From an uncultured PS1 clade bacterium (GTDB lineage Bacteria > Pseudomonadota > Alphaproteobacteria > MED-G09), in contig CACLQD010000007.1 of the NCBI GenBank assembly GCA_902609025.1, forward strand, positions 1 to 41,160: 41,160 bases of DNA. The letters run 5' to 3'. Positions 193 through 17,219 of this stretch are shown piece after piece. The notes beneath the pieces were generated by a model. That model did not search any database, was not told the DNA's origin, and saw only the letters and a list, made by a program, of their open reading frames with translations. The translations under genes and the position numbers were made by a program. Every line of letters begins with the position of its first letter. Within the stretch, counting starts at the first letter, position 1.

Positions 193-1008
193 ATGGTTAA
201 AATAGAAAAAAATACAGGCAAGTCTTTTGTAAAAATTCTTGAAATTATGTCTGCTCTAAGAGATCCAAAAAATGGATGTGAATGGGATAAAAACCAAGAT
301 TCTAACAGTTTAAAAAAATACTGCATTGAAGAGGCCTACGAGGTTGTTGAGGCAATAGAAAATAACGACAGTGATGCGTTATGTGAGGAATTAGGAGATT
401 TATTATTTCAAGTTATTTTTCACACTGAAATTAGTTCTGAAAAAGGTTATTTTAGTATCAAAGATGTAATTAATAATTTGTCTGAAAAATTAATAAGAAG
501 ACATCCTCATGTATTTGAAAAAGATTCTAATACTCACTCAATGAAGCAAATCGAAAAAAATTGGACAAAAATCAAGCAACAAGAAAGAGTAAATAAAGGC
601 AATACTGGTATACTTGATGATATACCAAAAAGCTTTCCCGCAATGATTAGATCATTGAAGTTACAAAAAAGAGCTTCTGAAAATGGTTTTGATTGGAAAA
701 ACTCAAATGACACCTTTAAAAAAATAGAAGAAGAAAAACAAGAGCTCAAAATTGCATTAATTCAGCAGGAAAAAGAGGAAATAGAAGAAGAAATTGGTGA
801 TTTAATTTTCTCAGTCATAAATTTATCACGTAAATTAAAAATTGACCCTGAAAATGCATTGAGAAAAACAAACAAGAAATTTTCGGCAAGAATAAATTAT
901 ATTGAAAAGAAACTTAAAAAAGAAAATAAAAAATTTAATGAATGTAATTTAATTGAATTAGAGATGTTATGGAATGAGGCAAAGACAGATACTAAACAGG
1001 CAAAATAG
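193..1008 (+). CDS. mazG: Nucleoside triphosphate pyrophosphohydrolase MazG
   Basis: House-cleaning enzyme that hydrolyses (d)NTPs to NMP and pyrophosphate, in the cytoplasm. It has the two tandem all-alpha MazG domains of the long bacterial form. The first carries the metal-binding pattern EEAYE...EELGD (about residues 45-70) and the second EEKQE...EEIGD (about 180-205), so both magnesium sites look intact. The length of about 270 residues is normal. The ORF opens at 187, but AAGG at 183-186 is 6 bases from the ATG at 193 and abuts the ATG at 187, so 193 is preferred. The 3' end overlaps the 3' end of hfq on the other strand by 17 bases. Confidence 0.95.
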
Positions 1009-1216
1009 TAGAAATTGCATGTTTATAGACTAATTGAATATTATTTGAACCTTTTAGTGTTAAAGTATTATTATCAAATGAAGTGATTGTTCCTTCAAGT
1101 TTTATACCGCTAATTAGAAAAATTGTAACCAATTTACTATTATCAACTAAATCTTTGATAAAACATTCTTCACCTAATTCTGAAATACTTTCTTTAATAT
1201 TATCAAGCATTATCAA
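992..1216 (-). CDS. hfq: RNA chaperone Hfq, divergent form
   Basis: Sm-like RNA chaperone expected to form a hexameric ring that joins small RNAs to mRNAs. The Sm1 segment ([12 protein letters not shown]...SFDN) and the diagnostic Sm2 motif [10 protein letters not shown] are clear. The C-terminal tail is almost absent. Aligned by eye to E. coli Hfq, Q8 is Glu, rim residues R16/R17/R19 are Val/Asp/Ser and F42 is Asn, while K31, K56 and H57 are kept. Two starts are possible: TTG at 1216 has AGGG 6 bases upstream; ATG at 1210 is 12 bases from it. It is the last gene of the trkA-side run, 67 bases after trkA, and overlaps mazG tail to tail. The usual neighbour hflX is missing. Confidence 0.92.
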
Positions 1217-1283: not shown

Positions 1284-2660
1284 TTAATAATAACTGGCGC
1301 TTACTCTAAATAATTGTTCAACTTCATGAATTTTCTCAGGAATAGAGAAGATTGTGACATAGTCACCCTCTTTTATTTTGGTGTCACCCCTTGGCATAAT
1401 TATGGTTTTATCTCTTAAAATTCCTCCAATCCTTAAGCCATTTGCTAAATGAAGCTCTTCTATTGTAGGGCCAACTAATTCAGACGACGATGAAACTTCC
1501 CCTTCAATTACCTCTGCGGATCCATCTGATAAAGTATATATATTTCTGATATGGCCCCTTCTAACATGCCTTAAAATAGATGATACAGTTATAGCTTTAG
1601 GATCTAAAAAATCACCGATATCTACTGATCTTATAAGACCTTGAAAATCCTTATTATTTAGAAGCGCTATAACTCTGTCACAACCATCACTTTTTGCAAA
1701 TGCAGCAGAAATAAAATTAGTTTCATCACTGTTTGTTAAACTTATTAGAATATCTGCATTCGATATTTCAGCTTCATTTAAAATATCTTTATCCATCCCC
1801 GATCCAAGTATAACAAAACTCTTATCAAATTTATCTGATAGGTCCTCTGCAATGTTTTCATTTTTTTCAATTATACGGAGAGAGATATTATCTATTTTAC
1901 TTTCTATTAACTTTCCAACTTCTTTACCAATTGAACCACCGCCAACTAAAACTATCCTTCTTGCTTGTTCATTTTGATAACCAAAAATTGATAGAGTCCT
2001 AGCAGCAAAATCACTTGGACAAATTAGATACGCTAGATCATCCTCTAATAATTTATCATTAGATTTTGGAGTAATAATATTATTATTTCTTCTTAAACCA
2101 ACTATGACTGTGTTTAAATCAGGAAATAATTCAGTTAATGAACCTATTTCAGCATTCTTTATTGGACAATCCTCATTTATCTTTATACCCAAAAATCTTA
2201 AATTATTATCGCCAAAAGGAACATTTTCAAAAGCGCCTGGTAACTCAAACCTCCTAAAAACAGATTTAGCAACCTCTTTTTCTGGAGATATTATTATATT
2301 CACTGGTAAATTAGAACTTGTAAATAAATCTTGATAAGAAGGATTCAAGTAAGATTTATCCCTTACTCTCGCTATTCTTTTAGGAACCTCAAATAAAGAA
2401 TGCGCAACTTGACAAGCCATCATATTAATCTCATCAGAAGGAGTTACTGAAATCAACATTTCAGCTTCTGCAGCTCCAGCTTCACCTAAAATATCTGGGT
2501 GAGCTCCATGACCAACAATTCCTCTAATATCTAGTTTATTACCAAGTTTTTCAATTAATCTTTTAGAGGAATCAATAATAGTTACTTCGTTGCCAATTTG
2601 AGATAATTTTTCAGCAATAGCCCTTCCACTTAACCCAGCACCACAAATAATGATCTTCAT
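1284..2660 (-). CDS. trkA: Trk system potassium uptake regulator TrkA
   Basis: Peripheral, nucleotide-binding subunit that gates Trk/Ktr potassium channels at the inner membrane. Two tandem RCK units are visible: a Rossmann fold from residue 1 (GAGLSGRAIAEKL) with a TrkA_C domain at about 140-225, and a second Rossmann fold at about 232 (VGGGSIGKEVGKL) with a C-terminal TrkA_C domain ending in the residues EGDYVTIF. At 458 residues it is the usual double-unit size. Weak binding site GGAA about 6 bases before the ATG. It follows the orphan NtrX-type HTH gene by 22 bases, the normal ntrX-trkA adjacency of alphaproteobacteria. No TrkH/TrkG partner is in the window. Confidence 0.95.
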   Translation of the reverse strand: MKIIICGAGLSGRAIAEKLSQIGNEVTIIDSSKRLIEKLGNKLDIRGIVGHGAHPDILGEAGAAEAEMLISVTPSDEINMMACQVAHSLFEVPKRIARVRDKSYLNPSYQDLFTSSNLPVNIIISPEKEVAKSVFRRFELPGAFENVPFGDNNLRFLGIKINEDCPIKNAEIGSLTELFPDLNTVIVGLRRNNNIITPKSNDKLLEDDLAYLICPSDFAARTLSIFGYQNEQARRIVLVGGGSIGKEVGKLIESKIDNISLRIIEKNENIAEDLSDKFDKSFVILGSGMDKDILNEAEISNADILISLTNSDETNFISAAFAKSDGCDRVIALLNNKDFQGLIRSVDIGDFLDPKAITVSSILRHVRRGHIRNIYTLSDGSAEVIEGEVSSSSELVGPTIEELHLANGLRIGGILRDKTIIMPRGDTKIKEGDYVTIFSIPEKIHEVEQLFRVSASYY

Positions 2661-2682: not shown

Positions 2683-2928
2683 TTATTTACTAATTAAACT
2701 TTGTAATTTTATCTTAGGCCCAATATTTAGATCATTTAACTTTCTATGCAAAGCTGATCTATCCATACCTATAAATTTAGCTGTTTTACTTATGTTTCCA
2801 TTAAAATTATTAATTTGAGCTATTAAATATTTTTTTTCAAAATCAGCTCTTGCGGAACGTAAATCCATTTCTAAATCTATAACAAGGAATTTATCCAAAA
2901 TACATCTCCTTAGAATATGTTGCTTCAT
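2683..2928 (-). CDS. Orphan Fis-type HTH protein derived from the NtrX C-terminus
   Basis: Up to 81 residues carrying only a Fis-family DNA-binding domain. The segment [14 protein letters not shown], then [22 protein letters not shown], matches what I know of the end of alphaproteobacterial NtrX (helix, then HTH). The receiver and AAA+ domains of NtrX are wholly absent: the metG stop lies only 34 bases upstream, so no remnant can hide there. The frame is intact. The ATG at 2928 has no binding site, whereas AGGAG sits 7 bases before an in-frame TTG at 2896-2898, giving a 71-residue protein starting [12 protein letters not shown]. Position just before trkA is the canonical ntrX place. It may act as a small Fis-like DNA-binding protein, or be a decaying gene. 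Confidence 0.85.
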
Positions 2929-2962
2929 TACAACAAAAATTTATAGTTGTCACTATTTTCGC

Positions 2963-4495
2963 TTATAAATCAATTTTAGGAAAAATAACTTTTGGCTCCT
3001 TAATCTTCAAGCCTGATTTAACGGCAAAACTTGGGTTTAAGTTAATAAAAGATCTTTCTTTTGCACTAATATTAAGAAAATCTAGAAGTTTATTAGAGCC
3101 ATCAACAATAACAGGCTGTAATAATATTGAGCTAATACGAAGAATCTCACAAGTAACCCATAGAATAGTATGCATTCTATCGGGGTCATCTCTATCAAGT
3201 TCCCAGGGCTTTTGATCACTAAAATATTTATTAGCCAAGGAAATAATATCAAAAATAGAATTTAAATAAGTATGGATCCGATATTCATCCATACATTCAA
3301 CAGACAGCTGGTATAGGTCGTATGCATTATTCAATAGAGATAAATCGATGTCATTAAGATCACCTTTAGTAGGTGTTTTTCCATCACATTTTGAAAATAC
3401 CATCTTAAGGCATCTTTGAGATAGATTGCCTAAATCATTTGATAATAAAGCATTTGAGTGATTAACAATAAGTTCATGGCTATAATTACCATCATTACCA
3501 AATGGTGTCGATGAAAGTAAGTAAAACCTTAATTGATCAACTCCATAAAGATTTAATAAATCAATAGGATCAACAGTATTTCCAACGCTTTTTGATATTT
3601 TTTCACCCTTATTAAGAAGAAAGCCATGAGAAAAAATCATTTTAGGAACATCTAATCCAGCTGAAAAAAGAAATGCAGGCCAATAAACTGCATGGAATCT
3701 AGTAATATCTTTTCCAATAAGGTGGATATCAGCCGGCCAAAATCTATCGAAAGATTTACTTCCCTCACACCAATCAAGCGCAGAAATATAATTAGTTAAC
3801 GCATCAAGCCATACATAAATGGAGTGCTCATTATTCTCTTCAACTGGAATGCCCCAAGAAATATTTTTTCTTGAAATAGAAATATCCTTAAGACCGGATT
3901 GAACAAAATTTTTTATTTCATTCATTCTCGAATTTGGAAGTATAAAGCTCTTATTGCTTTCATAGAGATCTAATAATTGTTTTTCATATTTGGATAATTT
4001 AAAGAAATAACTTTCTTCATCAATCCACTCAACGGAATTGCCATTAGGTGACAAATATGAATCGTTATCAGACTTTATCAATTCTTCTTCGTTATAAAAT
4101 GCCTCATCCCTTATTGAATACCATCCAGAATATTGATCGAGATAAATATCACCTTTATCAGAGATATTCTTCCAAATTGAATGGACATTTTTTTTATGTC
4201 TATTATCGGTTGTTCTTATAAAATCATTATTTGAACAATTTAAAGATTTAGCTAATTCAATAAATTCTTTTGATACTTTATCAACATAATCTTTGGGATT
4301 AATACCTAATTCTTTTGCCTTTTGTTGAACCTTTAAACCATGTTCATCGGTTCCAGTTAAAAAGAAGACGTCATAACCATCCAATTTTTTAAACCTCGCA
4401 ATTACATCAGCGGCAATTACCTCATAAGCATGCCCTATATGAGGAGAGCCATTGGTATAAGATATTGCAGTGCTAATATAGAATGAATCAGTCAT
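2963..4495 (-). CDS. metG: Methionine--tRNA ligase
   Basis: Class I aminoacyl-tRNA synthetase charging tRNA-Met in the cytoplasm. The HIGH signature is SPHIGHAYE (residues 17-25) and the KMSKS loop is GEKISKSVGN near residue 300. The anticodon-binding helical domain follows (KPWELDRDD near 440). At 510 residues it is the compact form without the C-terminal tRNA-binding dimerisation domain. The start lies 9 bases beyond the holB stop, in the usual tmk-holB-metG order. The TatD-type nuclease gene that often follows metG is not present; the orphan HTH gene follows instead. Confidence 0.97.
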   Translation of the reverse strand: MTDSFYISTAISYTNGSPHIGHAYEVIAADVIARFKKLDGYDVFFLTGTDEHGLKVQQKAKELGINPKDYVDKVSKEFIELAKSLNCSNNDFIRTTDNRHKKNVHSIWKNISDKGDIYLDQYSGWYSIRDEAFYNEEELIKSDNDSYLSPNGNSVEWIDEESYFFKLSKYEKQLLDLYESNKSFILPNSRMNEIKNFVQSGLKDISISRKNISWGIPVEENNEHSIYVWLDALTNYISALDWCEGSKSFDRFWPADIHLIGKDITRFHAVYWPAFLFSAGLDVPKMIFSHGFLLNKGEKISKSVGNTVDPIDLLNLYGVDQLRFYLLSSTPFGNDGNYSHELIVNHSNALLSNDLGNLSQRCLKMVFSKCDGKTPTKGDLNDIDLSLLNNAYDLYQLSVECMDEYRIHTYLNSIFDIISLANKYFSDQKPWELDRDDPDRMHTILWVTCEILRISSILLQPVIVDGSNKLLDFLNISAKERSFINLNPSFAVKSGLKIKEPKVIFPKIDL

Positions 4496-14695: not shown

Positions 14696-16132
14696 TTAGT
14701 TGCTTTCCTGATCTATACTAATATTAAGTTCAGTAATTTTTTTTCTCAATGTATTTCTATTTAAACCTAATAACTCAGCAGCTTTCAATTGATTGCCATT
14801 CTTATTTTTTAAAACCTCCAAAAGTAAAACCTTTTCAAGTTCAGTTACAAAATAATTGTATACATCTCCTTGATATTCTTTGTTAATTTTATTTATATTT
14901 CTTGAAAGATAATTTTCTAAAATTTTTGAAAATTGATTGTCAGTATCTAACATTTGCTGGTCAAGCTTTTGGAGATTCAATATTTCTTCAGTGAGATCTT
15001 CATTCATTACATTTTCATCTGTATAAAGAGCACATAATTTCAGAATAAAATTTTCAAGCTCTCTTACATTACCCGGCCATTGATATTTCTCTAAAATTTG
15101 AAAAGATTCAGTAGTAAATTTTTTTGGATCAAGTTTTAGATCTTTTGCTTTGTCTAAAAAATGATTAACTAATTCTGGAATATCTTCTTTTCTTTCTCTA
15201 AGCGGGGGTATGCTAATTGGGACTACATTGAGTCTATAAAACAAATCTTCTCTAAATTCGCCTTTCTCAATAAGATTAGAGAGATTCTTATGTGTTGCAG
15301 CTATTATTCTTGTATCTGCTTGAATTTTTTCTTTCCCTCCAATTGGTGTAAACTCTCCCTCCTGTAAAACCCTTAACAACCTCGTTTGAGCATCTATAGG
15401 CATATCACCAATTTCATCTAAAAATAGTGTTCCTTTTTCGGCTAATTTAAATTTACCATCACTCTTTTGATGAGCGCCTGTAAAAGATCCTTTTTCATGT
15501 CCAAAAAGTTCACTTTCAATCAGATCATTAGGAATGGCAGCCATATTGAGGGCTATGAAAGGCTTTTCTGACCTTGTGCTATATTTATGTAAGGCTTTAG
15601 CTACCAATTCCTTTCCTGTACCGCTCTCGCCATAAATCATAACAGTAAGATCATTTTGCGATAACCTTGCTATAGATTTGTATAAATCTTGCATAGCAGG
15701 TGATCTACCAACAATAAGCTGTTTTTCAGATTCGTTTCTTATTTTAGTTTTGTTTTTAAGATTTTGCTTACTTTCTAATGCTTTCTTGATCAGCTTTTGA
15801 AGCTCATCTAAATCAAATGGCTTGGGCAAGTACTCATAGGCTCCTTGCTTTGTTGCAGAAATTGCTGTTTGTAAATTATTTTTCGCACTAACTACAATTA
15901 CAGGTAGGTTCTCTCTGTATTCAACTATTTGAGGTAAAATATCAAAAAGCTCTCCATCAGGAAGCATCACATCAGTAATCAATAAATCCCCCTTATTGCT
16001 TTCTATTAATTTCCATAGCTCTTTAAGGTTAGTTGCCATAAAAATTTCATAACCCAAGTCTTGAAGATATCTAGAAGTGACTAATCTAATAGACTCGTCA
16101 TCCTCAGCTATTATTAAAGTTTTGTTACTCAT
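14696..16132 (-). CDS. ntrC: Nitrogen regulation response regulator NtrC
   Basis: Sigma54-dependent activator of nitrogen genes, phosphorylated by NtrB. Receiver domain at about 1-120 with the acceptor Asp in LLITDVMLPDG; AAA+ domain at about 145-375 with Walker A GESGTGKELVAKAL, Walker B LFLDEIGD and sigma54-contact loop written GSFTGA rather than the common GAFTGA; Fis-type HTH at the end (NGNQLKAAELLGLNRNTLRKKI). Length of 478 is normal. CGGAG lies 7 bases before the ATG, and the ntrB stop is 1 base away, so the pair is tightly coupled. Regulation by the palindromes upstream of ntrB is inferred. Confidence 0.95.
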   Translation of the reverse strand: MSNKTLIIAEDDESIRLVTSRYLQDLGYEIFMATNLKELWKLIESNKGDLLITDVMLPDGELFDILPQIVEYRENLPVIVVSAKNNLQTAISATKQGAYEYLPKPFDLDELQKLIKKALESKQNLKNKTKIRNESEKQLIVGRSPAMQDLYKSIARLSQNDLTVMIYGESGTGKELVAKALHKYSTRSEKPFIALNMAAIPNDLIESELFGHEKGSFTGAHQKSDGKFKLAEKGTLFLDEIGDMPIDAQTRLLRVLQEGEFTPIGGKEKIQADTRIIAATHKNLSNLIEKGEFREDLFYRLNVVPISIPPLRERKEDIPELVNHFLDKAKDLKLDPKKFTTESFQILEKYQWPGNVRELENFILKLCALYTDENVMNEDLTEEILNLQKLDQQMLDTDNQFSKILENYLSRNINKINKEYQGDVYNYFVTELEKVLLLEVLKNKNGNQLKAAELLGLNRNTLRKKITELNISIDQESN

Positions 16133-16133
16133 A

Positions 16134-17219
16134 TTATGACTCCGACATTAATCTAATAATAAATTTTGTTCCTTGATCAGTTAAATCAAGCTCAATAGTT
16201 CCATTATGATCACTAACTATTTTGGAAACTATTGATAACCCAAGCCCGCCTTGGCCAATTTTCTTAGTACTTACAAATGGTTGAAAGATTTCTTGTGATA
16301 TTGAGGCTGGAATACCTGGGCCATTATCAATCACAGAAATTTTAATTGGTAATTTTATTCTTTCCTCACTTAATTTTTCTTTAATAATGAATCCATGCTC
16401 ATAATTAGTTGATAAAATAATTTCATTATCAGAGTCTGACTCATTATTGAATGCCTCTATTGAGTTTTTAATAAGATTAATAAATACTTGAATCAATTGA
16501 TCTTCATTACCAATAACATCTGGAATTGAAGGATCAAATACTTCTGTTATTTTTATTTTCTTTTCACTTGAATTAATCATAACATCTCTAACATGTCGTA
16601 AAATTGAATGAATATTAATTGGCTTTAAATCAATAGGAGTTGATGCATCAAAAACTTGAAGGTTATCTACCAGTCTTTTAATTCTATCTACTTCATTTAT
16701 TATAAGATCTGTCATGACAATGTCATTGCTTTCAATATTCTTCTCTAAAATCTGTGCAGCTCCTCTAATACCAGCCAAAGGATTTTTAACTTCATGCGCA
16801 AGAATTTGAGACATATTTGACATTGCTATTTTATTTTTCTGATTTTCATTCTGGAGTATTAATTTTTTTTCATTAAAGCCCTCTATCAAAATAATTTGAT
16901 AGTAATTGTCTGACCCTATCACTGGAGTTACCTCAACATCTACATCTTTATGTGAACCAGAAATTGGGGTTGATAGATCAACCCTATATTCTTTAAAAGT
17001 TGTTTCTGTATTAAGAGAATTATCTATTAAAGATAAAATTGGAGATGAAAAAGGAAGAATGCTTTCGATTGATTTTTCTAACAACACTTTAGAGCTTAAT
17101 TTAAAAAAATCCTCAGCAGCTGAATTCACCATATTTATAAGCTTATGCTCATCAATTATTATAATTGGAAAGGTAATTGAATTTATGACTTGCTTATGTA
17201 TATTAGTATCATTAATCAT
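16134..17219 (-). CDS. ntrB: Nitrogen regulation sensor histidine kinase NtrB
   Basis: Cytoplasmic PII-controlled kinase/phosphatase for NtrC. A PAS domain occupies about residues 10-110 (FPIIIIDEHKLINMVNSAAEDFF), followed by the phosphoacceptor helix ILAHEVKNPLAGIRGAAQ near 140 and the ATPase domain with N box NLIKNSIEAF, DNGPGIP and GGLGLSIV. No membrane segments, as expected for NtrB rather than NtrY. The ATG has only AGG about 8 bases upstream, and that AGG is part of the first of two palindromes. The dusB gene that usually precedes ntrB in alphaproteobacteria is absent. Confidence 0.94.
   Translation of the reverse strand: MINDTNIHKQVINSITFPIIIIDEHKLINMVNSAAEDFFKLSSKVLLEKSIESILPFSSPILSLIDNSLNTETTFKEYRVDLSTPISGSHKDVDVEVTPVIGSDNYYQIILIEGFNEKKLILQNENQKNKIAMSNMSQILAHEVKNPLAGIRGAAQILEKNIESNDIVMTDLIINEVDRIKRLVDNLQVFDASTPIDLKPINIHSILRHVRDVMINSSEKKIKITEVFDPSIPDVIGNEDQLIQVFINLIKNSIEAFNNESDSDNEIILSTNYEHGFIIKEKLSEERIKLPIKISVIDNGPGIPASISQEIFQPFVSTKKIGQGGLGLSIVSKIVSDHNGTIELDLTDQGTKFIIRLMSES

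Follow-up and report, generated by a model that had tools for sequence, protein, structure and literature searches.

Can the DNA-binding tail of a response regulator outlive the rest of its two-component system and become a regulator in its own right? The question is raised by a short gene of an uncultured PS1 clade bacterium, found in a contiguous stretch of 41,160 nucleotides (the whole of the DNA analysed, referred to below as the window); in this gene a first-pass annotation recognised only the C-terminal Fis-type domain of NtrX. Here we call its product, a 71-residue solo Fis-type HTH protein, FisX. The gene lies beside trkA, which is the gene after ntrX in other Alphaproteobacteria. The source genome is a 911-kb assembly of 38 contigs (approximately 68% complete), and the family to which it belongs, the PS1 clade/OCS116 cluster, consists of marine Alphaproteobacteria with small genomes. 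Our family sample comprised 18 genomes, with 14 species loci in a GTDB-based collection, and spanned three genera (g1, g2 and g3).

The open reading frame listed for the window occupies positions 2683-2928 of the reverse strand (81 codons) between metG and trkA, and 34 bases separate the end of metG from the ATG at 2928, as originally described. We rejected this ATG as the start of fisX, since it falls inside the promoter palindrome and the -10 box (Table 1); the frame between it and the next candidate start shows no protein-level conservation beyond genus g1, and overlaps both elements. The TTG start proposed in the first-pass annotation, for which an AGGAG at 2910-2906 is spaced 7 bases from the in-frame codon at 2898, was borne out by the family alignment, which opens at MDKFLVIDL with ATG at this position in g2 and TTG in g1 and g3. 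The trkA gene is probably co-transcribed with fisX.

Table 1. Features of the fisX locus and retained ntr genes, in window coordinates
Feature	Position	Strand	Basis or remark
hfq	992..1216	-	gene after trkA, same run
trkA	1284..2660	-	starts 22 bases downstream of fisX
fisX (71-residue free-standing HTH_8 protein, TTG start)	2683..2898	-	profile, conservation, dN/dS
In-frame extension up to ATG 2928; probably 5' untranslated, non-coding	2899..2928	-	
Palindrome GTTGTAATGAAGCAAC, the putative operator; overlaps the -10 box	2919..2934	-	GTTGTAWTNAAGCAAC in 14/14 loci
-10 box TAATGA, inside the palindrome; putative promoter element	2925..2930	-	sequence; 17-bp spacer in all loci
-35 box GTGACA; predicted	2948..2953	-	TGACA invariant in 14/14
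metG	2963..4495	-	upstream neighbour of fisX
ntrC, full-length (receiver, AAA and HTH_8), retained	14696..16132	-	
ntrB, retained	16134..17219	-	

Both profile and structural comparisons place FisX with NtrX. It scores 44.1 bits against Pfam HTH_8 (cut-off 22), and its best match among curated families is to the last 48 positions of the NCBIfam NtrX model (NF051870, 452 positions; 69.8 bits, E 2e-19), versus 15.3 bits for the NtrC model TIGR01818 and scores far below the cut-offs for the Fis models NF001659 (15.7 against 99 bits) and NF002517 (17.6 against 122 bits); the original assignment of the domain to the C-terminus of NtrX therefore stands. The protein carries the NtrX-type C-terminal HTH_8 signature GM[ED]RxALHRK, and the recognition helices of the two types differ (NRNTLRKK in NtrC, DRSALHRK in NtrX). 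An AlphaFold monomer model (pLDDT 80.6) contains helices at residues 13-31, 36-43 and 47-56, and its C-terminal tail is disordered. Its best fold match is the DNA-binding domain of Brucella NtrX (0.4 Å over 48 residues), followed by an NtrC4 domain solved on DNA and then by Fis; the 48 aligned HTH_8 residues of Brucella abortus NtrX (PDB 5m7n) are about 70% identical to FisX. Structures are available for solo NtrC4 DNA-binding domains of some 60-69 residues, both free and DNA-bound (4fth, 3e7l), so a protein of 71 residues suffices.

The remainder of the NtrYX system was sought and is missing. Receiver and sigma54-ATPase (AAA) domains, earlier described as gone, are found neither in the fisX frame nor upstream of it, and the reported lack of ntrY extends beyond the window, as the NtrY_N profile has no match in the source genome or in 17 of the 18 family genomes. 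A full ntrYX turned up in the remaining genome alone (G015, contig 34, locus L057), as ntrY-ntrX-trkA; the TrkA encoded there shares 61-65% identity with SAR11 proteins and 39-41% with those of the PS1/OCS116 family. Because this TrkA is SAR11-like and G015 holds its own fisX-trkA elsewhere, the contig is contamination, and we reject it as a family ntrYX. In the near-complete sister genome G006, of whose assembly 98% was covered, NtrX and NtrY queries recovered, besides ntrC, ntrB and fisX, only receivers and kinases that are unrelated. The sole strong sigma54-AAA match (PF00158) per family genome is ntrC, which is kept with its own HTH_8 in 15/18 genomes, and rpoN was likewise found in 15/18.

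Gene order suggests how the separation came about. In other Alphaproteobacteria, ntrB-ntrC-ntrY-ntrX-trkA form one block adjoining ispDF (L054), and the ntrX-trkA pair also occurs in L060 and L062. The window still has ispDF-ntrB-ntrC and fisX-trkA-hfq-mazG in the same order, with the full-length ntrB and ntrC, absent from the first-pass annotation, about 12 kb from fisX; the expected place of ntrY and the front of ntrX is taken by other genes, rlpA-dacC-tmk-holB-metG among them, over roughly 12 kb. We read this arrangement as fission of ntrX by a rearrangement in the family ancestor, which thereby brought metG beside the ntrX remnant.

Many of the family genomes are single-cell or metagenome assemblies, and a decaying or misassembled ntrX might be mistaken for a gene. 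This explanation is scarcely credible here, as the same short frame separates metG from trkA in each of the 14 species loci, recovered in 14 independent assemblies with contigs of up to 792 kb. Across the three genera 40 of the 71 alignment columns are invariant, so the conservation is not due to chance. Within genera, pN/pS of fisX is 0.072 (g1) and 0.049 (g2), compared with 0.145 and 0.225 for metG, 0.216 and 0.414 for holB, and 0.073 and 0.125 for trkA; the frame is stop-free in every relative, and a dN/dS of approximately 0.05-0.07, at or below that of its neighbours and not near 1, supports the proposed selection for a small DNA-binding protein. The N-terminal MDKFLVIDL is invariant, and positions 1-11 are unvarying save position 10, whereas the residues of full-length NtrX that align with them form a variable linker; the N-terminus was therefore selected after FisX became free-standing. 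This new N-terminus and the conserved fisX promoter also speak against a remnant, and the 14 loci and their dN/dS refute a misassembly or pseudogene. Among the best 80 relatives in the GTDB collection, the others are full length or are short only through a contig end. We consider both the descent of FisX from NtrX and selection on it well supported.

The control region of fisX is conserved as well. In 14/14 family loci TGACA is followed 13 bases on by GTTGTAWTNAAGCAAC at constant spacing, and this promoter and operator have been kept although between-genus synonymous sites are near saturation (pS 0.55-0.78). Taken as a putative sigma70 promoter, the element has the form TGACA-N17-TAWTNA with its -10 box inside the palindrome, a layout that would be that of a self-repressed gene. 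The conserved putative operator overlaps the promoter of fisX itself, as in autoregulated factors, and trkA and hfq may be under the same control. Near-matches to the operator (1-2 mismatches) inside coding sequence were judged to be chance or orthologous coding sequence.

The palindrome also occurs elsewhere in these genomes. Perfect copies of GTTGYA-N4-TRCAAC number 21 in the 18 family genomes versus 6 for the reversed control; no enrichment is seen across 285 other Alphaproteobacteria (about 148 versus 188 for the control, summed by hand). Each of the 17 family sites examined precedes a gene, either gltB, the large subunit of glutamate synthase, or a TonB-dependent receptor belonging to one of several paralogous groups; at gltB the palindrome has nearly the same place in 9/9 genomes having the gene. 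As for gltB itself, it is accessory, present in 9 of the 18 family genomes, and some genomes of 96-97% completeness lack it. When a weight matrix was built from sites in other genomes, orthologs of G006 sites among them, it ranked five intergenic sites at the top of the 1.42 Mb of G006: two TonB receptors, fisX, gltB and the spacer between the tRNA/glnK side and a TonB receptor, all within the 9.3% of the genome outside ORFs of at least 130 residues. Permuted half-sites gave a mean of 0.22 intergenic matches and a maximum of 3, versus 5 for the motif (6 with the fisX site), and both permutations reaching 3 were near-variants of the motif. Only 2 of the 13 TonB-type receptors in G006 carry a site, and gltB is present in half of the genomes; we count both against the regulon reading.

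Individual sites differ in their surroundings. One palindrome (L194:3474-3489; C2:218473 in G006), of a type identical to the fisX operator, is located in the long spacer between a tRNA and a TonB receptor, with a PII/glnK gene beyond the tRNA, and is conserved in G001, G003 and G006. In the g2 gltB promoters (L201, L204-L206) a Fur-box-like TTGAGAATGATTATCAA stands directly before the palindrome, a juxtaposition that suggests possible joint control of g2 gltB by iron and FisX. A sigma70 arrangement common to all targets was looked for and not found: the palindrome lies over the -10 box at fisX and g2 gltB, and other sites vary in their position relative to promoters and could serve either activation or repression. 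No palindrome was found upstream of ntrY in the 27 loci of other Alphaproteobacteria, mostly SAR11, with a findable ntrY.

As to which protein occupies these sites, we think it probable that FisX does. The GTTG arms of the palindrome, 4.5-7.5 bp either side of its centre, are spaced as in HTH_8 dimer sites, for example G-N13-C for Fis (PMC7166090) or GCAN9TGC for Rhodobacter NtrX (cited in PMC9223101). In Brucella and Sinorhizobium, footprinting yielded the NtrX motif CAAN2-5TTG (PMC9223101), which has the CAA/TTG arms in common with the PS1 palindrome, in a different arrangement. Two observations count against binding by FisX: the published NtrX motifs differ from the palindrome, and one half of the fisX operator is an imperfect match (AAGCAAC). 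The palindrome could instead belong to another regulator, of iron, nitrogen or something else, with FisX merely one of its targets and having its own sites elsewhere. TonB receptors are the usual targets of metal regulators, the Fur-box-like sequence adjoins the palindrome in g2 gltB promoters, and TTG-N8-CAA matches the spacing of CRP/FNR sites too; however, proteins of that type (HTH_Crp_2) were found in 0/18 family genomes, and NtrC-type sites, considered as an explanation and rejected, neither match the palindrome nor coincide with it. Moreover, fisX is the sole regulator gene among the candidate targets, the arm spacing suits HTH_8 dimers, and enrichment is confined to the family having FisX, all of which leaves another regulator an unlikely owner of the sites. 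In Paracoccus, loss of NtrYX alters TonB-receptor levels and NtrYX affects iron (PMC9409073), and Caulobacter NtrX occupies its own promoter (PMC11005374); the candidate targets of FisX are therefore of the NtrX kind.

In light of these observations, the reading we favour, with somewhat better than even confidence, is that fission of NtrX gave rise to FisX as a specific transcription regulator, one that is independent of a kinase, represses itself and retains NtrX-like targets. The ntrB-ntrC-ntrY-ntrX-trkA block would have split in the PS1/OCS116 ancestor, with loss of ntrY and of the receiver-AAA part of ntrX. The DNA-binding tail would have remained in position ahead of trkA, acquiring a start codon and a sigma70-type promoter of its own as well as a conserved N-terminal peptide. 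FisX would bind GTTGYA-N4-TRCAAC as a presumed dimer. As the palindrome covers its own -10 box, FisX should repress itself, probably together with the co-directional trkA-hfq, and it would also control gltB and a few TonB-dependent receptors. As it has neither receiver nor AAA domain, no kinase can phosphorylate it and it cannot activate sigma54; its activity might instead depend on how much of it is made, on another ligand or partner, or on competition for its sites. The broader proposition, that a response regulator turned into a constitutive one-domain regulator while keeping its ancestral place and part of its regulon (itself, iron and nutrient receptors, nitrogen assimilation), seems to us evenly balanced.

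Could FisX instead resemble enteric Fis, as an abundant nucleoid-associated protein with broad binding to AT-rich DNA, and leave the palindrome to another factor? Its fold and size class are common to Fis and lambda NinH (68 residues; PMC7166090), Fis structures are among its next best fold matches, the genome is AT-rich and fisX sits within a housekeeping gene run. Yet its recognition helix is of the NtrX type, Fis profiles give just 15.7-17.6 bits, and a specific palindrome that is rare genome-wide is strongly conserved on its promoter, so that we hold such a role to be improbable. The retention of NtrC and rpoN in most family genomes would allow FisX to act on NtrC, either as a dominant partner in heterodimers or by competing for shared sites, and not independently; this is very unlikely given the differing recognition helices and the failure of NtrC-like sites to coincide with the palindromes. 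The evidence points to FisX as a local regulator with few sites.

Set against known systems, FisX is neither a member of NtrX, whose other domains and partner it lacks, nor Fis proper, whose profile and gene context it does not share. Its likeness to NtrX lies in its place before trkA and in its likely target classes (its own promoter and TonB receptors); it differs in lacking the receiver with its phospho-acceptor Asp, the AAA domain and NtrY, in length (71 versus approximately 455 residues), and in having its own start and promoter and a new invariant N-terminus. Like Fis, it is a small free-standing HTH_8 protein (up to about 100 residues) from the tail of an NtrC-family activator, but the parent is NtrX, the neighbours are metG and trkA with no dusB, and it has 71 residues versus 98, without the N-terminal arm region. 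NinH of phage lambda, a 68-residue solo Fis-like dimer on a palindrome, is a precedent for so short a protein, though it is a phage protein that binds G-N13-C in an unrelated gene context (PMC7166090). The first-pass suggestion of an independent birth of a Fis-like factor is upheld for the architecture, with NtrX as parent here and NtrC as that of classical Fis (Morett and Bork 1998, as cited in PMC7166090 and PMC7482072).

Solo HTH_8 proteins of other kinds occur in related lineages. Several small-genome Alphaproteobacteria encode NtrC-type proteins of 94-109 residues beside dusB (L049:7502-7816, L050:6776-7069, L051:7348-7644, L060:4964-5293 and L048:4797-5081) that score higher against Fis (51-73 bits) than NtrC (46-53 bits). 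They resemble FisX as solo HTH_8 domains left in an ntr cluster after loss of the N-terminal domains, and differ in being NtrC-derived, Fis-scoring and beside dusB, most of them with a full ntrY-ntrX; a dusB-fis arrangement inside the ntr cluster would be as the Fis-from-NtrC hypothesis predicts. A 98-residue Fis-scoring solo protein (L059:6237-6533 in G049; 71 bits to NF002517) is encoded close to where a 6.6-kb contig stops, which truncates its downstream context. Genome G048 has a second and unrelated solo NtrX C-terminus of 95 residues (L053:6347-6634; 68.5 bits to NtrX), found in this one incomplete genome only, not beside trkA and with no other ntrX sequence within the surrounding 12 kb.

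In its action FisX may be close to a specific Fis-type regulator. One-domain HTH_8 regulators such as Fis are an already known kind; what is new is the birth from NtrX, the likely operator and the few likely targets. Fis is thought to derive from the tail of NtrC, with the intermediate lost in deep time, whereas the NtrX-derived birth is confined to one family and the parent is intact in other lineages. The fisX gene therefore lets one ask what an independent regulator needs: a new start, an N-terminus, its own promoter and a self-operator. If our reading is true, nature would here have repeated the proposed origin of Fis in a form that can be dated and in which parent, daughter, operator and targets can all be seen, and streamlined ocean bacteria can shed a sensor system yet retain its DNA-binding output.
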